Shown here: positions 1,405 through 35,135 of the stretch, one piece after another | Layout: each line of letters starts with the position of its first letter | How positions within the stretch are numbered: the first letter of the stretch is position 1 | Position numbers and translations under genes: made by a program | Notes under the pieces: model-generated | The model's database searches: none | What the model saw: only the letters and a program-made list of their open reading frames with translations | What the model was told of the DNA's origin: nothing | From: Candidatus Zixiibacteriota bacterium | GTDB lineage: Bacteria; Zixibacteria; MSB-5A5; GN15; FEB-12 | Length of the DNA: 64,000 nucleotides | Direction of reading: 5' to 3' | Assembly: GCA_024280215.1 (NCBI GenBank) | Contig: JAJRQO010000042.1 | Coordinates: forward strand, 1-64,000

Positions 1405-3381
1405 TTAATGCTTGATACGTATTTTTCTTGATATTGTCGTATCAGCAGTAACAAGATTTAGATAATAAGTTCCATCTGGTTGCGATGATATATCTATTGG
1501 AAAATATAATTCTTTGACTGCTTGATAGTTCTTTTCGTAGATAATCCCAAGAGAATCTGAATTTATTTCCAGTCTAAAATCTCTGCTATCATTAAAAAAC
1601 AAGTCGACCTCGAATTGACCGTTGTTTCGAGGTGGGAATATTTGAACTATTGGATCATTGTCTATTTGAATCTCTGCGTCATCATCTAAAACTTGAAATG
1701 CAAATTTAACTTCAGAACCAAAATCAGAATTGAAGTTTTTGAGCAACTGTTCATTCATATCAAGGATCCGCACATATCCATATCCCCCATCTGGATTAAA
1801 CCAAAGGGCTAAGCCATCACCCGAAGTATCCGCAAAATTAAATTGATAGCACCCTGCTACCAAATATATTGTGTCCCGATAAATTGAATCAGACACAAGA
1901 GAACCGAGTGGTCTTTCTAAATATAATTCTCCAACAGTAATACTGGAGCCATGATTGAATTTAAAATCAACGCCTCCTCCCATCTGAGATAGTGAAAGCT
2001 CGTTGTGATTGGGTTCTTTGTTTGCTTTGTATGATACAATAAATGAATATGGCAAAGTAGGTGGATTGGCAAATTCAGATTTTAAATAATTATCAGAACT
2101 ATATGCATCATCATGGTTATTCGGTTGTTCAAGATTAACATAGAATGTATCTAACTCTTGAGTTGTTAGCAAATAGGTAGGAAGTGAAACTTGAGTATAT
2201 TGTTGTGGTAGGAGTTTACCTATCCATCTATGAATATTCATTTCTCCAACCATTCCATATTTTATAACAATACTTTTTATAGTTTCAGACCCATTATTTT
2301 TTATCAGAATTTCAGGGTTAGCACATGCGGGATTGATACGAGAATAGACATCCTCAGAACTTGGTATAAGTATTTCTTCAAGCGAAACGTCGTTTGCAGC
2401 CCAAGGTTTTTTATAATAAAACAAATACGAATATATCCAATAATTTGCTGATGGTTTGTTTGGGTTGATATATGGTTCCATGTCTATGTTAACAATATGC
2501 TTTTTATTTTTCGTGATTTCAAAATCATATATATCAGGGAATACAACCGAGCCAGGACACCAATTGGCACGATCAAATATCCATGTCCCTGCTTGGGGAT
2601 AGAGTGGATTGTCGGTGCATTTACGCCAAATTTGACGCTGGTTAAAAAGGGAATCGTCAAAAAAAACTTGTCTATACTTCGAACAAAACTCAGCACAATT
2701 AGCAGAGTCGTCCATGCCATGTCCTGTCTGATGAATCCTCAGGCGAGCAATATCAGCAAAATCGTTTGAGAACTCTATTGGAGATAATAATTCTTCAATT
2801 GGATTAGCTGTATCGCCGTACGGGAATTTTCCAGACCACAGCGTGTCTATACCGATACACTCCATCGCAGGTCTTCCCTCGGTTATTTCAAAATCCAAAG
2901 TTATCAACCAACCACGGTCATCTTTATTTTCATACCCTCCGTGATAAAATTCAATTTCAACAGAGTCATGTAGCAAAAAACCAAAATCGGTCACATCAAC
3001 ATGCCAACTAAAACTCCATGTCGAATCAAAAGACCATCCATACGGTGATATTGTCCGAGCAAGTTCGTAATTTAATGAATCCGAATCTTGAGAACCTACT
3101 CGTCTTAAAAATATCCCATCGAGATAATCCCATTGTCCACAATGTAGCGAGTCGGGACATTCATAGGTAATGTTCAAAATTATTTTTCGATACTGAATTG
3201 AATCAGATGGAAAATGAGTCCAATTCGTATACGTGTTAAATCCCCGAGATGGGTCAGTGACAACAAATTCTTTATCGTGTGACAGAATATTTATTTTATC
3301 ACCACTCTTTGCTGAAACAGAAATAACGGATAATAAAATTAATAACAATATAAGACAGTTGTTTTTTGTAATCTGGTTCAT
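1405..3381 (-). CDS. Secreted PNGase F-like protein with C-terminal sorting-type domain
   Basis: The 658-residue protein begins with a signal peptide (about residues 1-24). The next part resembles bacterial peptide-N-glycosidase F, which removes N-linked glycans from asparagine: YECPDSLHCGQWDY near residue 75, then TGHG...NCAEFC and finally PQAGTWIFDRANWCPG in the 215-280 region, all recognisable PNGase F elements of the two-domain PNGase F/PHM jelly-roll fold. The C-terminal part (about 570-658) resembles a beta-rich secretion/sorting domain of FCB bacteria. The start codon ATG has AAAGGA upstream. It lies after the ftsZ terminator and before flagellin, all on the minus strand. Enzymatic activity is inferred from motifs; a monooxygenase-fold relative without deglycosylating activity remains possible. 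Confidence 0.72.
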   Translation of the reverse strand: MNQITKNNCLILLLILLSVISVSAKSGDKINILSHDKEFVVTDPSRGFNTYTNWTHFPSDSIQYRKIILNITYECPDSLHCGQWDYLDGIFLRRVGSQDSDSLNYELARTISPYGWSFDSTWSFSWHVDVTDFGFLLHDSVEIEFYHGGYENKDDRGWLITLDFEITEGRPAMECIGIDTLWSGKFPYGDTANPIEELLSPIEFSNDFADIARLRIHQTGHGMDDSANCAEFCSKYRQVFFDDSLFNQRQIWRKCTDNPLYPQAGTWIFDRANWCPGSVVFPDIYDFEITKNKKHIVNIDMEPYINPNKPSANYWIYSYLFYYKKPWAANDVSLEEILIPSSEDVYSRINPACANPEILIKNNGSETIKSIVIKYGMVGEMNIHRWIGKLLPQQYTQVSLPTYLLTTQELDTFYVNLEQPNNHDDAYSSDNYLKSEFANPPTLPYSFIVSYKANKEPNHNELSLSQMGGGVDFKFNHGSSITVGELYLERPLGSLVSDSIYRDTIYLVAGCYQFNFADTSGDGLALWFNPDGGYGYVRILDMNEQLLKNFNSDFGSEVKFAFQVLDDDAEIQIDNDPIVQIFPPRNNGQFEVDLFFNDSRDFRLEINSDSLGIIYEKNYQAVKELYFPIDISSQPDGTYYLNLVTADTTISRKIRIKH

Positions 3382-3419
3382 ACATATCCTTTGATATAAT
3401 AATATATTTTGTAGAGATA

Positions 3420-3448
3420 AAATATATCAGCGATAAAGAATTATCAAG
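3420..3448 (-). promoter_or_regulatory. Possible sigma-70 promoter for the PNGase F-like gene
   Basis: Minus strand TTGATA (3443-3448), a 17-nt spacer and TATTTT (3420-3425). It sits between the ftsZ terminator and the gene start. Neither hexamer is perfect, so this is tentative. Confidence 0.3.
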
Positions 3449-3453
3449 TGCAT

Positions 3454-3493
3454 AAAAAAATGCCGTTGGAAGGGTAGTTTACCCAACGGCATT
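3454..3493 (-). terminator. Intrinsic terminator closing the dcw cluster
   Basis: On the minus strand ATGCCGTTGG and CCAACGGCAT form a perfect 10-bp stem followed by TTTTTTT. It is about 85 nt after the ftsZ stop and ends the mraZ-ftsZ transcription unit. Confidence 0.88.
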
Positions 3494-3578
3494 AGTGGAG
3501 GAACCAAACGAGAGCGTCATAACCGCTCATAGTTAGGTTAATTGGTGGTCTTTATATAAAAAATAATTCAATCAAAAT

Positions 3579-4868
3579 TTATTCTTCGCCAAGTCTCCTG
3601 ATATAAGCAGGAATTGACGTATCTTCAGCAGAAAACATCGGCACTCTATTTCGCCCGCTTGTACCGCTGTTTTGTTTCTGTTCAATCTCTTGCTGTGTTT
3701 CACGAATTTCCATTTTGGCACGATTTACCACAGTTTCTTGTTGTACTGGTTGCTGTGGTTGAGGTTGTCTTGGTGTTATATTCGTTTGAGCAGGTTGCTG
3801 AGGAGTTATCATTTGATCTTCAAAAAGTGAAATCGGTACCCCTGGTTTTGTTTCATCGATAACTTCTTCTTTTACTGGTACAATAACATCTTCATCACCA
3901 TGGAACCCAGTTGCGATAACAGTCACACGCATTTGATCTTGCATAGACGGGTCAATGACAGCACCAAAAATAATATTGGCATCATCACCAGCAGCTTCAT
4001 AAATAAGTGAAGTCGCAGTGTTGACATCAAAGAGTGCCATATCATCACCACCAGTTACATTTATCAAAACGCCTTTTGCACCAGCAATAGAAATATTTTC
4101 AAGTAATGGAGATGAGATAGCAGCTTGAGCAGCATCGATAGCTTTCTCTTCACCTTTACCATAACCAGTCCCCATGATAGCATCACCTCGTTCAAGCATC
4201 ACGGTACGAACATCTGCAAAGTCACAGTTGATAAGCCCAGGAATCGTAATCAAATCTGAAATACCTTTTGTTGCTTGGTAGAGTACTTCATCAGCCGTAG
4301 CAAAAGCATCGGTAAGCGTAGTTTTTTTGTCAACGATTTCCAATAGTCTTTCATTCGGAATTGTAATAAGCGTATCAACTTTATTTCTAAGTTCTTTAAG
4401 TCCGTCGTTAGCACGATCGACACGTTTTTTTCCTTCAAAGCGAAAAGGTTTAGTAACAATTGCAACTGTCAAGGCACCCGCATCTCTGGCAAGTTGTGCA
4501 ACTTCAGGAGCAGCACCTGTACCAGTTCCTCCCCCCATACCAGCAGTAATGAATACAAGGTTTGGTGTTCCGATTGCTTCAGTTAACTCATCTTTACTTT
4601 CGTGTACTGCTTTTTTTCCAATTTCAGGATTAGCCCCAGCACCAAGACCATCGGTCGCTTCTCTACCAATTTGAACTTTTACTTCCGCCATATTTTGGTC
4701 TAAGACCTGTGCGTCAGTATTTATAGCGACAAAATCAACGCCTTTTAATTTTGCATCAATCATACGATTGAGAGCATTACCACCACCACCGCCAACTCCA
4801 ATAACTTTTATTTTGGCGTAACCGATAAAGTCTTCGGCGAAATCAAATTTATGTTTGTTAGGTGTCAT
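3579..4868 (-). CDS. ftsZ: Cell division protein FtsZ
   Basis: Tubulin-like GTPase that polymerises into the division ring. The nucleotide-binding core starts with VIGVGGGGGNALNRMI near residue 22, and the tubulin signature GGGTGTG is at residues 112-118. The T7-loop region and GTPase domain continue to about residue 320. A Gln/Pro-rich linker (about 345-400) follows, and the conserved C-terminal peptide ends IPAYIRRLGEE, the docking site for FtsA. At 429 residues the length is normal. ATG start with AGGAGG-like sequence upstream; 19 bases separate it from ftsA. It is the last gene of the cluster. Confidence 0.98.
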   Translation of the reverse strand: MTPNKHKFDFAEDFIGYAKIKVIGVGGGGGNALNRMIDAKLKGVDFVAINTDAQVLDQNMAEVKVQIGREATDGLGAGANPEIGKKAVHESKDELTEAIGTPNLVFITAGMGGGTGTGAAPEVAQLARDAGALTVAIVTKPFRFEGKKRVDRANDGLKELRNKVDTLITIPNERLLEIVDKKTTLTDAFATADEVLYQATKGISDLITIPGLINCDFADVRTVMLERGDAIMGTGYGKGEEKAIDAAQAAISSPLLENISIAGAKGVLINVTGGDDMALFDVNTATSLIYEAAGDDANIIFGAVIDPSMQDQMRVTVIATGFHGDEDVIVPVKEEVIDETKPGVPISLFEDQMITPQQPAQTNITPRQPQPQQPVQQETVVNRAKMEIRETQQEIEQKQNSGTSGRNRVPMFSAEDTSIPAYIRRLGEE

Positions 4869-4887
4869 TATAGTTCCTCCTGAACTA

Positions 4888-6111
4888 TTAAAATTGTTTT
4901 GTGATCCAATCCTCGAATCTCTTTAACCATCCCTTTATATTGCCACTTGAATTTCCTTTGACTGGTTCGTTATGAAAACCGTAATAAAGTAAACCATGGA
5001 TTGCAGCATAGCGGGTGTTATCGATTTCATCTGGACTATGATCTATGTTTTTTATTTTTTCTATTCTAACTGGCATATCAAAAATTTGTTCAGCAAGCTC
5101 GACAACTCCCAAGAGCATCGAACCACCACCAGTGAGGACAATTCCTCCTGCTGGAATTTCTCTGATTCCTGCTTTTCTAATTTCTTTGGCAACTAATGAA
5201 AATATTTCTTCCATACGCGGTTCTATAATAGACGAAAGAACGTTACGGGAAATTTCTTTTGCAGGACGGTTCATCAAACCGTCAATTGTTATCATCTCCT
5301 CAGGGTCTACCATTGATGCCAACGCGGAACCATGAGCAAGTTTGAGAGTTTCTGCCTGATCAACAGATGTTCTCAAACCGATAGCAATATCATTTGTGAC
5401 ATTTTTACCACCAAGTGAAACGACTGATGTAAATCGAATAGCTCCATTGTAGAAGACAGATATATTTGTTAAGTCACCACCAATATCGATTAAAATTATA
5501 CCATCTTCTTTTTCATCATCAGTTACTAAGACATGTGAAAGTGCTAACGATTCAAGTACTATATGATCGACACCTAACTTGCATCTTTCTAATGCACGCA
5601 TAATATTTTTTGCAGAGGTAATCGATGCCGTCACAATATGTGCTTCTACTTCAAGTCTGACACCCGACATTCCGACAGGGTCTTTGATACCTTCGGTTTC
5701 ATCAACAGAATATTCTTGTGGTATAACATGAATAATTTCACGGTCAACAGGGATAGCAACTGCTTTGGCGGCAGATATTGCTTTTTCTACATCATGAGCA
5801 GAAATTTCTTGATCGGAACGAGAGACCGCAACGACACCATTACTATTGATTGAACGTATATGCTCACCCGCGATACCAACTGTCACACGGTCGATTTCGG
5901 TACCTGAAACCATCTGGGCATCATCAACTGCTTTGCGAATCGACTTTACAGTTTTTTCCATATCGACAACAATACCACGACGTAACCCCTCGGAATTACT
6001 CATGCCATGTCCGATGACATAGACACCTCCCGCTTCATCCATCTCAGCAACGATGCAAACAATCTTTGTCGTACCAATATCTAAGGCTGCGATTATATTT
6101 TCAGAAGCCAT
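4888..6111 (-). CDS. ftsA: Cell division protein FtsA
   Basis: Actin-like ATPase that tethers FtsZ to the membrane. The N-terminus AALDIGTTKIVCIVAE is the phosphate-1 loop of the actin/Hsp70 fold, GGDLTNISVF near residue 215 is the phosphate-2 loop, and GGIVLTGGGSML near residue 325 is the adenosine motif. The 1C domain typical of FtsA is present. The protein ends with an amphipathic helix (GWLKRFEDWITKQF), the membrane anchor. It starts one base after the ftsQ stop, consistent with co-translation. Confidence 0.97.
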   Translation of the reverse strand: MASENIIAALDIGTTKIVCIVAEMDEAGGVYVIGHGMSNSEGLRRGIVVDMEKTVKSIRKAVDDAQMVSGTEIDRVTVGIAGEHIRSINSNGVVAVSRSDQEISAHDVEKAISAAKAVAIPVDREIIHVIPQEYSVDETEGIKDPVGMSGVRLEVEAHIVTASITSAKNIMRALERCKLGVDHIVLESLALSHVLVTDDEKEDGIILIDIGGDLTNISVFYNGAIRFTSVVSLGGKNVTNDIAIGLRTSVDQAETLKLAHGSALASMVDPEEMITIDGLMNRPAKEISRNVLSSIIEPRMEEIFSLVAKEIRKAGIREIPAGGIVLTGGGSMLLGVVELAEQIFDMPVRIEKIKNIDHSPDEIDNTRYAAIHGLLYYGFHNEPVKGNSSGNIKGWLKRFEDWITKQF

Positions 6112-6831
6112 CTATTTCTTCCCTTGTGAGCAAACAATCATTTCATCATATCGTAAATCGAGAAGCTTTACATCTTCTAAATTCGGATCAAAGCGACTTA
6201 CAAAACGAATAAATTTATCTATATCTTCAAGCAAATAATCATAGCGAACTTTAAGCCGGTAATTGAGACCATCAATGGAAATTTTCAAAAAACTTGAATT
6301 CCCAAAATCAATTTCATCGATTAAACCATACAAATCTCTATTTTGATTTTTTAATTTTTGTAACGCTTTCACAACAGGCTTTACTCGAAAATCTTTGCAA
6401 AAACCATATGGGTTACTTATTGTCAAAGAAGTCAAAATTGGATTATCCCAAGAATATTCTGAATTTTCTAATAGCACCACTCTTGAATCTATATCTAATC
6501 CGTATATTTTCTTTGTAACTTTGTCCAAGACAAAACAACACGATTCATAGTTATTTGTTTTAATTTCAATTTTATTCGGAAGAGTGTAACCAATATCAAC
6601 TTTATAAATATGTTTCTTTTTCATTAACTCAATAGCAAGTGAATCAAGAGGTTGATTTGTTATAGGTTTGTTCTCATGTAGATTATAATTGTCTGACCAG
6701 TTATCCAAAACAGACGCATTTACTGTTACTGTCTCTAAGACAAAGTAGTCAGTAAAGTTGCCAACCGACAAAAGTGTCGATCCAAAAATGATAAATGCGA
6801 TAAGTGATAATTTTATTTTCTTAGGTAACAT
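6112..6831 (-). CDS. ftsQ: Cell division protein FtsQ/DivIB
   Basis: Bitopic divisome scaffold. One membrane segment lies at about residues 8-28, followed by a POTRA-like stretch (VETVTV-type beta strand, then a region ending in KKHIYKVDIGYTLPNKIEIK) and a beta domain ending DLRYDEMIVCSQG, the typical FtsQ end (DLRxxxxVVxR-like). At 239 residues it is of usual length. Sequence identity in this family is always low, so the call leans on architecture and the murC-ftsQ-ftsA order. Confidence 0.88.
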   Translation of the reverse strand: MLPKKIKLSLIAFIIFGSTLLSVGNFTDYFVLETVTVNASVLDNWSDNYNLHENKPITNQPLDSLAIELMKKKHIYKVDIGYTLPNKIEIKTNNYESCCFVLDKVTKKIYGLDIDSRVVLLENSEYSWDNPILTSLTISNPYGFCKDFRVKPVVKALQKLKNQNRDLYGLIDEIDFGNSSFLKISIDGLNYRLKVRYDYLLEDIDKFIRFVSRFDPNLEDVKLLDLRYDEMIVCSQGKK

Positions 6832-6832
6832 C

Positions 6833-8260
6833 TTATTTTTTTAACGCTTCCATAATTTTATTTTTGATAAGTGTTATCGAGCCCGCACCCATAGTAATTA
6901 TCAAATCATTTGGTTTAGCTATTTTTGCAATTTCGTCTATTGCGTTTTCTTTAGGACCAAGATATGCAAAATTTTCATAGCCAAATTTTTTGGCGTCAGC
7001 AACAATAACCTCAGATGAAATCCCTTCTATAGGTTCTTCACGAGCGGGATATATGTCTACCAGAAATGTTTTATCAGCAATTGAAAGTGCATGAGCAAAA
7101 TCATCTCTAAAATCTCTGGTACGACTATAAAGATGCGGTTGGAAAATAACAATCACCCGACGGTCATATACTTTTTGAGCTGTTTCCAATGTAACTTTTA
7201 TTTCAGATGGATGATGTGCATAATCGTCGATAAACAAAATATTATTTTCTTCCCCGATAATTTCAAATCGTCTCCCAACACCGTTAAATTGCATCAGTCC
7301 ATCTGCTATCATTTCAAATGGAACGTCCAACTCATGACAAGCAGCAATCGACGCCATTGCATTGAGAATATTAAACTCACCAGGCACTCGTAAAATAATA
7401 TCACCAAGCAAGTCACCCTCTTTGTAAACTGAAAATGTTGTCCGTCCAGAATTCATCTGCACGTTTAAGGCTCGGTAATCTGAATCAATTGAAAAACCAA
7501 AAGTTTTGTAAGGACGACTGATACGGTGACGGATATTTTTGAGATTTTCATCATCGGCTGAAAGAATAACTTGTCCATAAAATGGTACACGGTTCATATA
7601 TGCGACAAAAGAATCAATCAAATCTTCTTCACCATCATAGCAATCAAGATGATCCGCTTCCAAATTTGTTATAACAGCCATCGACGGAAACATTGCTAAA
7701 AATGATTTGTCATATTCATCTGCTTCAGCTACTAAATAATCACCAGAGCCTAATGCTGCACCTGTACCTAACCCCGCAACAACACCACCAACAATAAGAG
7801 TAGGTTTATATTTTCCATGACGTAAAATTGTACCAATCATTGAAGTCGTCGTTGTTTTTCCGTGCGTTCCAGAAACACCGATAGAAAACTTAAGTCGCAT
7901 CAATTCACCAAGCATCTCGGCTCTTTTGATAACTGGAACACCAATCCGTCTTGCTTCTACAACTTCGGGATTCTCTTCTCCGACCGCCGATGTAATCACT
8001 ACAACATCAACATCTTTTAAATTGGCGGCCTTATGTTCTGTAAAAATATTGATACCAAGTTTTTGCAAATATTCTGTGATCTCACTTGGTGTTGAATCGG
8101 ATCCTTTGATTTCATACCCAAGATTAAAAAGGATTTCTGCTATGCCAGACATACCAGCACCGCCGATACCAACAAAAAATAATTTTTTAATTTTTCCGAA
8201 CATAATTTTTTCTCTTTTAAAAGCGTGTTCTGTTTTCAAGACAGCATTGTTGTTAGACAC
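6833..8260 (-). CDS. murC: UDP-N-acetylmuramate--L-alanine ligase MurC
   Basis: Adds L-alanine to UDP-MurNAc in the cytoplasm using ATP. The N-terminal Rossmann motif is FVGIGGAGMSGIAEIL, the ATP P-loop is GVSGTHGKTTTTSM, and the Mur ligase signatures EADEYDKSF and DDYAHHPSEI are present. The start is probably GTG at 8260: AGGAG lies five bases upstream, overlapping the murG stop. A second possible start, ATG at 8203 (MFGKIKKL), matches the usual MurC N-terminus but has only a weak ribosome site. Confidence 0.97.
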   Translation of the reverse strand: MSNNNAVLKTEHAFKREKIMFGKIKKLFFVGIGGAGMSGIAEILFNLGYEIKGSDSTPSEITEYLQKLGINIFTEHKAANLKDVDVVVITSAVGEENPEVVEARRIGVPVIKRAEMLGELMRLKFSIGVSGTHGKTTTTSMIGTILRHGKYKPTLIVGGVVAGLGTGAALGSGDYLVAEADEYDKSFLAMFPSMAVITNLEADHLDCYDGEEDLIDSFVAYMNRVPFYGQVILSADDENLKNIRHRISRPYKTFGFSIDSDYRALNVQMNSGRTTFSVYKEGDLLGDIILRVPGEFNILNAMASIAACHELDVPFEMIADGLMQFNGVGRRFEIIGEENNILFIDDYAHHPSEIKVTLETAQKVYDRRVIVIFQPHLYSRTRDFRDDFAHALSIADKTFLVDIYPAREEPIEGISSEVIVADAKKFGYENFAYLGPKENAIDEIAKIAKPNDLIITMGAGSITLIKNKIMEALKK

Positions 8261-31666: not shown

Positions 31667-32725
31667 CTATACCAACTTCACAGATTTATCACCCTTGGTG
31701 ATTGTACCAATAGTGTAAACCTCTTCGCCAACCGCTTTGATGTCGGCTACAATAGCGTCGGCGTCATTTTTATCAACAACCAAGATATAACCAATCCCCA
31801 TATTAAATGCAGAGTAAATATCAACAGGGTCGATATTACCGATCTCTTTCAAGAAATTGAACAACGGGTTTATTTCCCCCCAGCTATTTTTTTCGATAAC
31901 CGCAGTCAGATTGACAGGAAGAACTCGTTTTAAATTTCCAGGAATCCCACCACCAGTAATATGTGCCATACCGTGAATATCATGTTTTTCAAGTAGCGGA
32001 TGGATAAGTGAACTGTAACATTTGTGAACCGAAAGCAAGGCGTCACCGATTGTCATCCCAAGTTGGTCAACATGGTCGGATGGTTTCAATCCTCCAATAT
32101 CAAATGCCGCTTTGCGAGCCAGCGTGTAACCGTTAGTGTGCAGTCCTGTCGACGGAAGACCGAGACAAACATCACCCTCTTTAATGGTCGAGCCATTGAC
32201 AATTTTATCTTTGTCAACCATACCAACCACAAAACCGACCAAATCGTATTCGCCTTCTTGGTAAAATTCAGGAAGTTCCGCCATCTCACCACCGATTAAA
32301 GCGGTCTTGTTTTGTTTACAAGCCAGAGCGAGACCTTCTAATATCTCCGTAATAGTATTTTGGTGTAATTTCCCAACTCCGATATAGTCCAAAAAGAACA
32401 TCGGCTTGGCAGCATGCACTAAAATATCATTGATACAATGATTGACCAGACATTGCCCGATTGTATCGTGCTTGTCAGTCATAAATGCAACTTTGAGTTT
32501 TGTCCCGACGGAATCAGTCGATGAGAGCAGGACAGGATTTTTTATATTTGAAATATCTGGCTGAAAAAACCCGCCAAATGCCCCTAACCCCTGAAGTACC
32601 TGAGGATTAAATGTCGAGGCTGCCAGCTCTTTGATGCGGTTAACCGCTTCTTCACCAGCTTTTACGTCAACGCCTGAATCGGCATACGTTATCTTTGAAT
32701 CTGATTTGTTTTGTGTCATTGTCAT
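31667..32725 (-). CDS. purM: Phosphoribosylformylglycinamidine cyclo-ligase PurM (AIR synthetase)
   Basis: Fifth step of purine synthesis. ITYADSGVDVKAGEEAV is the family N-terminus; SSTDSVGTKLKVAF, GQCLVNHCINDILVHAAKP, LIGGEMAELPEFY, GLPSTGLHTNGYTLAR and HITGGGIPGNLKRVLP are AIR synthetase signatures. Length 352 is normal. Two ATGs (32725 and 32719) lie only a few bases from a strong -10 box and no ribosome site is visible, suggesting a leaderless or near-leaderless message. Confidence 0.97.
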   Translation of the reverse strand: MTMTQNKSDSKITYADSGVDVKAGEEAVNRIKELAASTFNPQVLQGLGAFGGFFQPDISNIKNPVLLSSTDSVGTKLKVAFMTDKHDTIGQCLVNHCINDILVHAAKPMFFLDYIGVGKLHQNTITEILEGLALACKQNKTALIGGEMAELPEFYQEGEYDLVGFVVGMVDKDKIVNGSTIKEGDVCLGLPSTGLHTNGYTLARKAAFDIGGLKPSDHVDQLGMTIGDALLSVHKCYSSLIHPLLEKHDIHGMAHITGGGIPGNLKRVLPVNLTAVIEKNSWGEINPLFNFLKEIGNIDPVDIYSAFNMGIGYILVVDKNDADAIVADIKAVGEEVYTIGTITKGDKSVKLV

Positions 32726-32753
32726 ATATACGATTGTGGCTGATATTTGTCAA
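32725..32753 (-). promoter_or_regulatory. purMp: Strong sigma-70 promoter of purM, overlapping its start codon
   Basis: Minus strand TTGACA (32748-32753), exactly 17 nt, TATATA (32725-32730). The -10 box touches the first ATG of purM and ends six bases before the second, so transcription would begin at or inside the start region. The -35 box overlaps the first two bases of the 27-bp repeat at 32752-32778. Confidence 0.7.
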
Positions 32754-32778
32754 TAATTGAGTAAAGATATATTGGGAG
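32752..32778 (+). repeat. 27-bp direct repeat, left copy (edge of inserted cassette)
   Basis: AATAATTGAGTAAAGATATA then TTGGGAG. It is identical, base for base, to 34021-34047. Flanking bases differ on both sides, so the identity has sharp limits. The pair brackets two plus-strand genes inside otherwise minus-strand DNA. An inverted copy of its first 14 bases lies at 33998-34011. Confidence 0.9.
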
Positions 32779-32900
32779 CGTTTTCGAAGAATTTATTTTT
32801 TCATTGTCAATCGAAATGTGATGTGATACATTACTAAATGATATTATTAAAATAATAAAGAGAATTTCTTTATTAACAATATTTTAGGACATATTTGAGT

Positions 32901-32930
32901 TTGGTCGATTTCGACTGCCAATATTATAAT
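32901..32930 (+). promoter_or_regulatory. Promoter-like sequence at the cassette gene start
   Basis: A consensus TATAAT (32925-32930) ends four bases before the ATG at 32935; a weak TTGGTC lies 18 nt upstream. No ribosome site precedes the ATG, so the message would be leaderless. Confidence 0.4.
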
Positions 32931-32934
32931 TCAT

Positions 32935-33702
32935 ATGGTAAGAAATAAGCATAAAAATTACGAGATTCTTAATTTGATAGGTTATGGCTTGTCAAAATTT
33001 AATGACGATTTTATAAAAGAATTTGGGTTTTTAACTAAATCAGCTTTCTATGAATTTTGTGTAGAAAATAAAATAGCTGATACAGTTGGAACAGTAAAAA
33101 ACAGAATGGATTTATTTGATCCTTTCTTTCCAAAAAACGGTAGAAAAGGATGGTGGCAAAAAGGGGACGCTTACATTCATAGAAAAATACTTATTGATAG
33201 CTTATTTGGTAAAGAAAAAGTTAATGAATATGCGGATATAGTAAAACTGTATATGAATAAATCATTTAAAGTTAAAGATTTTAAGTATCATGCTAAACCA
33301 ATAATTAAAAGTCGATTTAAGAAATTACAGGAGACAGGTTTAGAAGCTGAACTGTTTTTCATGGAAAATTTCAATCAGATAGATATTTTTCAAAATGGCT
33401 CTTTAGAAGATGCAAGATTATTTGGAGATGGCTATGATTTTCAGATAGAGGTAAAAAAACATTCTTATTTAGCGGAAATTAAAGGCATAAGAGGTAAAAA
33501 AGGTAAATTTCGACTTACAGAAAATGAATATCAAAAAGCTCGAGAATACGAAGATGATTATATTGTCACTTTAATATTAAATCTTAATGAAATTCCAAAA
33601 TTTCTTACAATTGAAAACCCAATCAAAAACTTAAAATTTGAAGAGAAACTAATAAAGTCAAGAATTTCAAAAGAATATCACTTAATCAACTCAATATGCT
33701 AA
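32935..33702 (+). CDS. DUF3883-type PD-(D/E)XK nuclease-fold protein
   Basis: The 255-residue protein has a C-terminal DUF3883-like domain: GLEAELFF (135-142), a segment with Asp168 in FGDGYDFQ, and the EIK core (Glu181-x-Lys183) followed by KFRLTENEYQKAREY. This D...E-x-K arrangement is the PD-(D/E)XK nuclease pattern; DUF3883 domains often accompany restriction or helicase proteins in defence islands. The first 130 residues are Lys- and aromatic-rich and unrecognised. Codon use is strongly A/T-biased relative to purM. Its stop overlaps the start of the next gene. Nuclease activity is inferred only. Confidence 0.7.
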   Translation: MVRNKHKNYEILNLIGYGLSKFNDDFIKEFGFLTKSAFYEFCVENKIADTVGTVKNRMDLFDPFFPKNGRKGWWQKGDAYIHRKILIDSLFGKEKVNEYADIVKLYMNKSFKVKDFKYHAKPIIKSRFKKLQETGLEAELFFMENFNQIDIFQNGSLEDARLFGDGYDFQIEVKKHSYLAEIKGIRGKKGKFRLTENEYQKAREYEDDYIVTLILNLNEIPKFLTIENPIKNLKFEEKLIKSRISKEYHLINSIC

Positions 33703-33944
33703 ATTTCAAAGAAAAACAGAAAATATTTATATCTATTTTAGAGCAAAACGAATTTTCCTATGCAGATGGTTATAATGCATTTATTAGCATTAGTGCAGAG
33801 AATCATCAATATATATTTCTAAAACAATTAAGCTCTGAAAAAGATATTGAATATTGGATTGTAAAATTAAAAAGTAGAATTGTATTAAAAGAAGATTTAG
33901 CTCCGATTGATGATATAATTGATGATTATATAAGTTGTGGATAA
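33696..33944 (+). CDS. Small cassette protein of unknown function
   Basis: An 82-residue acidic protein whose ATG lies inside the last codons of the DUF3883 gene (7-base overlap), so translation is probably coupled. It has no signal peptide or membrane segment and no motif I recognise. It looks like a compact alpha/beta protein with an Asp/Ile-rich tail (PIDDIIDDY). As a partner of a nuclease-fold protein it could be an immunity or regulatory subunit, but nothing in the sequence shows that. Confidence 0.6.
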   Translation: MLNFKEKQKIFISILEQNEFSYADGYNAFISISAENHQYIFLKQLSSEKDIEYWIVKLKSRIVLKEDLAPIDDIIDDYISCG

Positions 33945-33997
33945 TATCACCCTCAACTTTTGAAATAAATTTCTCAGAAGTTGGTTCTTTTGAAAGA

Positions 33998-34034
33998 TTT
34001 ACTCAATTATTTCTCATTTAAATAATTGAGTAAA
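33998..34034. repeat. 15-bp perfect inverted repeat at the right end of the cassette
   Basis: TTTACTCAATTATTT (33998-34012) and AAATAATTGAGTAAA (34020-34034) are perfect reverse complements around a 7-base loop. The right arm is part of the 27-bp direct repeat. The stem is all A/T-rich and has no T-run, so it is a poor terminator and more likely a recombination end. Confidence 0.8.
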
Positions 34035-34047
34035 GATATATTGGGAG
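34021..34047 (+). repeat. 27-bp direct repeat, right copy (edge of inserted cassette)
   Basis: Exact copy of 32752-32778 in the same orientation. Confidence 0.9.
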
Positions 34048-34285: not shown

Positions 34286-34361
34286 CTTAAAATCATTATT
34301 CTTAAGACGTGAGAACTTCTAATAAGTTACAAACTAAATTAAACTACGCAATATTATTTTG

Positions 34362-34463
34362 TTCTGTTAGTTCCTGATTCCGCTTCTGCGGGATTGTGAA
34401 CTGACAGATTTCCAAGTGTCAGATGTCATCCGACTTCGTCTGATAGCATCAGACACAACAGAA
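34362..34463. repeat. Composite hairpin repeat, copy 1
   Basis: Contains AGTTCCTGATTCCGCTTCTG and continues to GTGAACTGA (34369-34404), 35 of 36 bases identical to 35046-35081. It is followed by a second arm that starts GTGTCAGATG and ends CATCAGACAC. TTCTGTT and AACAGAA bracket the unit. Non-coding. Confidence 0.65.
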
Positions 34464-35035: not shown

Positions 35036-35135
35036 TTGTTTCGTCAGTTCCTGATTCCGCTTCAGCGGGATTGTGAACTGATGAATAGGTGTCTGGTCAC
35101 AATTTACTAAAAGTAAATCAGGACCTGACACAACG
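35036..35135. repeat. Composite hairpin repeat, copy 2
   Basis: Second copy of the unit at 34362-34463. The first arm (35046-35081) is nearly identical; the second arm keeps the outer GTGTC...GACAC pairing but has a different inside (ATTTACT/AGTAAAT), so pairing is conserved more than sequence. Confidence 0.65.

Follow-up and report, generated by a model that had tools for sequence, protein, structure and literature searches.

A cassette of two genes, encoding a predicted nuclease of the NOV_C/DUF3883 family and a small partner, was found upstream of purM in the 64-kb window, which is the whole stretch of DNA analysed here. The unit is very probably an insertion with a 27-bp target duplication. 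At other loci, related cassettes repeatedly lie in broken operons of methyltransferase (M) and restriction (R) genes, and the nuclease site is conserved. The explanation preferred here, tentatively and at a little less than even confidence, is a foreign modification-dependent defence cassette of NOV_C and a small partner, captured at purM, which displaces cognate restriction-modification (R-M) systems of the GCNGC type. No R-M remnant was found at the window cassette by translations, by tblastn of M and R references or by eye, so displacement is proposed for the family and not for the window copy.

Structure of the insert

The two copies of a 27-nt repeat, at 32752–32778 and 34021–34047, match exactly and have different flanks. 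With up to 3 mismatches allowed, just these two copies were found in the window (0 matches in 100 shuffles), and they were the sole matches in the 3.03-Mb genome. A search of 97 relatives gave no match. The left copy is native sequence directly upstream of purM, and the right copy is the target duplication. The housekeeping gene purM (31667–32725, minus strand) was recognised by its AIRS domains, and its upstream side was the target of the insertion.

Two overlapping plus-strand genes lie between the repeats: the NOV_C gene at 32935–33702 (255 aa) and ORF2 at 33696–33944 (82 aa). The G+C content of the insert is ~25–28%, against ~38–44% in the minus-strand housekeeping flanks. The inner segments beside the genes, at 32779–32934 on the left (included in the negative search for R-M remnants) and 33945–34020 on the right, are also AT-rich. 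Open reading frames of at least 40 aa fully within the insert are the two genes and one overlapping 41-aa frame, and none of them encodes a transposase or integrase. A terminal inverted repeat pair is absent from the insert. The insert region has no Rfam match, tRNA or terminator, and no tRNA lies close by. A sequence-only reading of this DNA had described identical 27-mers with different flanks, an AT-rich plus-strand gene pair inside minus-strand housekeeping DNA and the lack of a transposase or integrase inside. All of this was confirmed by sequence comparison, the reading frames and the G+C content.

Two similar intergenic stretches (GTTCCTGATTCCGCTTC..GCGGGATTGTGAACTGA) were seen near the cassette, at 34350–34405 and 35036–35079. 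One of them shares 44 identical bp with a site in the congener G002, which suggests a small dispersed intergenic repeat.

Empty sites and mode of insertion

The purM orthologs of three same-genus genomes (identity of 96%, 93%, and 78%) led to empty sites. Upstream of purM, G003 has GTCAATAATTGAGTAAAGATATATT, in which the first 22 nt of the 27-mer are identical to the window. Because the last five bases differ in G003, the precise extent of the pre-insertion target had to be inferred. G002 and G001 have single copies of the 27-mer homolog that are more diverged. The NOV_C gene is absent from all 97 relatives, including the three congeners with the empty purM site. Since the empty sites hold one copy and the gene is absent from the relatives, one insertion that duplicated 27 bp is the simplest account, and the repeat in the window is the scar of that event.

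The sequence-only reading had proposed that the unit was inserted and had suggested comparing the purM region across related genomes. The three congeners without the genes, each with one homologous copy, support the proposal. It had named as contrary outcomes a common dispersed repeat or relatives with the genes and without the repeat. The 27-mer has two copies in this genome and none in 97 relatives, from which the NOV_C gene is missing as well. It had offered the repeat as a target duplication or a recombination site; the single-copy empty sites uphold the former, and the latter is not supported, with no reuse of the sequence, no equivalent repeat at other NOV_C loci and no paired arms in the empty sites. 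Its suggestion that the 27-mer may bracket other cargo found no example here or in the 97 relatives.

At 33998–34012 (minus strand), 7 nt from the right repeat, 15 nt reproduce the beginning of that repeat perfectly in inverted orientation, and 14 of them match the 27-mer itself. When the last 40 nt of the insert were shuffled, a match of at least 12 nt to the target arose in 4 of 20000 cases. The inverted arm is present at one end of the insert only, and no counterpart was found in the empty sites. With 14 nt of target sequence inverted just within the right end, break repair seems a better fit than transposition. Foreign DNA may have been captured once at a staggered break beside purM, where fill-in would give the 27-bp duplication and templated insertion during break repair would give the inverted arm at the right end. 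These details of repair are put forward with less confidence than the insertion itself.

It is distinctly improbable that the unit is an integrative or transposable element mobilised in trans by a recombinase, with the 27-mer as attachment site or transposition duplication. Such an element would account for an exact 27-bp direct repeat with no recombinase inside, and the right end carries a 15-7-15 palindrome with a superficial likeness to a recombinase core. A target-site duplication, as in transposons, is evident from the comparison with the single-copy empty sites. However, the insert has no transposase or terminal repeat pair, other loci have no equivalent ends, and 27 bp is long for the duplication of a DDE transposon. 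The palindrome occurs at a single end and is missing from the empty sites, which lack the left arm of a tyrosine-recombinase core. The 27-mer was used only once in this genome and its 97 relatives (98 genomes), and the lack of a nearby tRNA also argues against such an element. No flanking direct repeat comparable to that of the window was found around NOV_C in 65 loci. Exact direct repeats were considered as a general feature of NOV_C loci and rejected, as the few found in the 65 loci were short, distant or in repeat-rich DNA.

The predicted nuclease and its partner

The 255-aa protein matched NOV_C/DUF3883 (PF13020) with E=9e-16 and 58.2 bits, against a cut-off of 22.1. Residues E139, D168, E181, and K183 were invariant in 59 homologs, and the PD-(D/E)xK-type site is intact. 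The protein is therefore predicted from its sequence to be a DNA-cutting enzyme. DUF3883 was proposed earlier as a novel restriction endonuclease domain (PMC3710099), and NOV_C/DUF3883 was presumed to be a type II restriction endonuclease (PMC10609329). The AlphaFold2 model (mean pLDDT 90) showed a helical domain at about residues 9–131 and a nuclease-like domain at about 134–232. Foldseek with this model gave weak matches only, including Holliday-junction resolvases (Hjc) and SPARDA. The N domain matched no PDB structure, including the known readers of modified bases, which counts against the preferred explanation. The protein had no BisI family match in Pfam, NCBIfam, PHROGs, or the PDB. PADLOC gave matches of ORF1 to TmtA and of ORF2 to Cas11a, which were weak or limited to the nuclease domain.

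ORF2 is conserved directly after NOV_C at other loci. Its model is helical with a pLDDT of 93, and a fold search against the PDB gave no match. At least four ORF2 types occupy the same place after NOV_C, and the window has type A. None of these types was found in the intact R-M operons compared. Type B occurred with R1b in 5/5 cases and types A/D with R1 in 14/14 (Fisher p=9e-5). This pairing involves about four switches on the tree, two of them on strongly supported branches. With so few switches, a role of ORF2 as an R-specific antidote is offered as a suggestion. A fairly improbable extension is that the module flips cells from cutting unmethylated GCNGC to cutting methylated GCNGC. NOV_C would attack the resident mark and ORF2 would neutralise residual R, and the R-M system would be overwritten without post-segregational killing.

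Distribution of the cassette

Relatives of NOV_C with 49–78% identity were found in Campylobacterota, Bacteroidota, Pseudomonadota, Lentisphaerota, Cyanobacteriota, Acidobacteriota, and others. Since the gene is absent from 97 relatives and yet up to 78% identical in distant phyla, the cassette is horizontally acquired. The nearest entries to the window NOV_C in the tree were L004 and L008. No phage match was found, and none in IMG/VR or PHROGs; plasmid carriage was represented by one distant match only. About one third of the loci, including the window, lie between housekeeping genes with no R-M remnants. At the Acinetobacter loci, the empty-site comparison showed a flanking gene only ~61–67% identical in relatives. 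The open-access literature searched contained no account of a short two-gene NOV_C cassette that takes the place of M-R operons.

Broken restriction-modification operons

Neighbour clustering and reading of the proteins showed fragments of C5-cytosine methyltransferases upstream of NOV_C and fragments of NgoFVII_C-type (PF20731) restriction enzymes downstream. By mapping to reference proteins, 37 of the 65 loci had M or R homology (E≤1e-3) next to NOV_C. Seven further loci, judged by eye, had a short methyltransferase start or the C-protein gene of the operon, giving a total of about 44. The cassette-free operons L135–L138 consist of M followed by R, both intact. The last residue of the M fragments varies between about 35 and 389, and the 3' end is almost always missing. 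Most of them stop within about 65 nt of NOV_C, at many different positions. R1-type fragments begin at residue 19 to about 390, with the 5' end missing. Both M and R fragments were present at 14 loci. At L005, the start of R3 was kept and the 3' part was lost. L003 is an exception, with M3 and R3 apparently intact directly before NOV_C. It counts against displacement, together with L005, which breaks a system resembling the M3-R3 kind of L003.

At ten loci, the junction before NOV_C carries a motif similar to GTTGCWTAA, which reads in frame as VA-stop (the pattern was hit 11 times, versus 1.2 expected after shuffling). It was rejected as a general element terminus because it is missing from the window. 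M fragments of varied length end in frame with -[FL]VA-stop directly before the NOV_C start codon at L013, L016, L018, L021, L037, L038, L041, and L042, and this ending recalls an ssrA-type C-terminal tail, which might act like a degron. R fragments often start at about residue 230–271, near the start of a B3-like DNA-binding domain (L004, L018, L022, L026, L034, L036, L045, and L064). A free-standing DNA-binding domain left over from R may sometimes lie downstream of ORF2.

Methyltransferase specificity

M1 and the methyltransferases encoded next to Bsp6I-family enzymes have nearly identical recognition regions, and a Bsp6I-type M methylates GCNGC (PMC9465063). Plasmid relatives of M2 adjoin PLD-type or AlwI-type R genes. 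In the NOV_C tree, one clade occurred with M2 contexts (12/12 known) and the other with M1 or M3-like contexts (27/28). The association between NOV_C clade and M family gave a Fisher p=2e-9, computed on tree tips that are not independent.

The genome of the window (G000) has three intact C5-cytosine methyltransferases, at C42:156008–156949, C29:44447–45403, and C38:2428–3408, and their recognition regions are unlike the GCNGC type. Among 49 cassette genomes, two metagenome-assembled genomes (MAGs), G106 and G302, were found to have an intact M with a GCNGC-type region, which counts against the preferred explanation. None of the cassette isolates examined shows an intact GCNGC-type M. In 150 relatives of a cassette-bearing Flavobacterium, a GCNGC-type region was present in 3 of the 11 best M loci. 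With a background of only 3/11, the low count in the 49 cassette genomes is no evidence of exclusion. The MAG containing L009 has an intact methyltransferase with a GCNGC-type recognition region, followed by an ATPase-like gene and a Z1-like gene (L227, ~3100–7001). This neighbourhood is perhaps a different R-M or defence system.

Proposed displacement of restriction-modification systems

By homology, NOV_C would belong to a family that cuts DNA with 5-methylcytosine from GCNGC-type methyltransferases. Such a nuclease would be incompatible with the cognate methyltransferase in one cell, and the cassette would therefore sit where M and R are both broken, in hosts with such an R-M system. A cell should tolerate the loss of R alone, and losing only M while R still works should kill it. 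The regular loss of M therefore calls for an explanation, and a nuclease directed at the product of M would account for its being broken nearly everywhere. The location in broken operons suggests that the enzyme attacks the DNA that the lost methylase would mark. A cutter of unmethylated GCNGC would attack its own host, since the isolates examined have no intact GCNGC-type M. Homology and genomic context are what suggest cleavage of methylated DNA, GCNGC as its context and the part played by ORF2.

On another reading, the cassette is a mobile module of general defence, such as a nuclease toxin that ORF2 inhibits. It would land in defence loci, where broken R-M operons are common and expendable, with no epigenetic conflict. 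The loci among housekeeping genes agree with this, and so does the small overlapping partner of varying type, which recalls the layout of an inhibitor or antitoxin. Such a module is nonetheless unlikely. The remnants are narrow, a C5 methyltransferase and mostly an NgoFVII_C-type R with no mix of defence genes; the M family is tracked by the NOV_C clade; and the regular loss of M along with R is left unexplained. It is less likely still, and indeed quite improbable, that NOV_C and ORF2 were originally internal to an M - NOV_C - ORF2 - R operon and that the truncations are later decay with nothing displaced. The order of M fragment, NOV_C, ORF2, and R fragment is constant in most loci, and some junctions look common, such as that near M1 residue 298 in L020 and L034, with L032 added by eye. 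However, intact M, NOV_C, ORF2, and intact R occur in order at no locus, and NOV_C and ORF2 are missing from intact M-R operons. The 3' end of M is gone beside NOV_C almost everywhere, most fragments are uninterrupted up to the junction, and the junctions fall at many positions in several M families.

If displacement of cognate R-M systems by the cassette is correct, it would give a role to one NOV_C/DUF3883 group and its small ORF. Dozens of bacteria would then preserve a record of how a Type II R-M system was physically overwritten by a methylation-dependent enzyme, and epigenetic conflict between defence systems would be testable with defined pairs.

Comparison with known systems

The DpnI cassette has a nuclease of ~254 aa and a small second gene. 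In Streptococcus pneumoniae, a single locus holds either DpnI, which cuts methylated sites, or DpnII, an R-M system that recognises the same sequence (PMC12707154). NOV_C may similarly take the place of M-R genes whose intact forms exist in other genomes, although not at the window locus. The target of DpnI is G-m6A-TC, and the enzyme includes a winged-helix domain, whereas the mark proposed for NOV_C is m5C and its N domain is unlike any PDB entry. Other differences from DpnI and DpnII are the irregular NOV_C junctions and an apparent replacement seen repeatedly in different phyla.

In the PcaRCI/PcaRCII conflict of Pectobacterium, an m5C R-M system is incompatible with an antagonistic methylation-dependent nuclease (PMC8989522). 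There, methylation of its promoter silences the nuclease and settles the conflict, whereas the R-M genes at the NOV_C loci appear physically broken. The Pectobacterium nuclease is an HNH enzyme, and that of the cassette is NOV_C. McrBC is reported to kill cells that acquire a methyltransferase (PMC2614495). The BisI family consists of Gm5CNGC-dependent endonucleases (PMC4926085, PMC11347163). The target proposed for NOV_C, GCNGC with 5-methylcytosine, would be like that of the BisI family, although no sequence or family match between the proteins was seen in Pfam, NCBIfam, PHROGs, or the PDB. Earlier accounts of NOV_C/DUF3883 described helicase fusions and HMM groups, whereas here the same nuclease domain was found in a short two-gene cassette.
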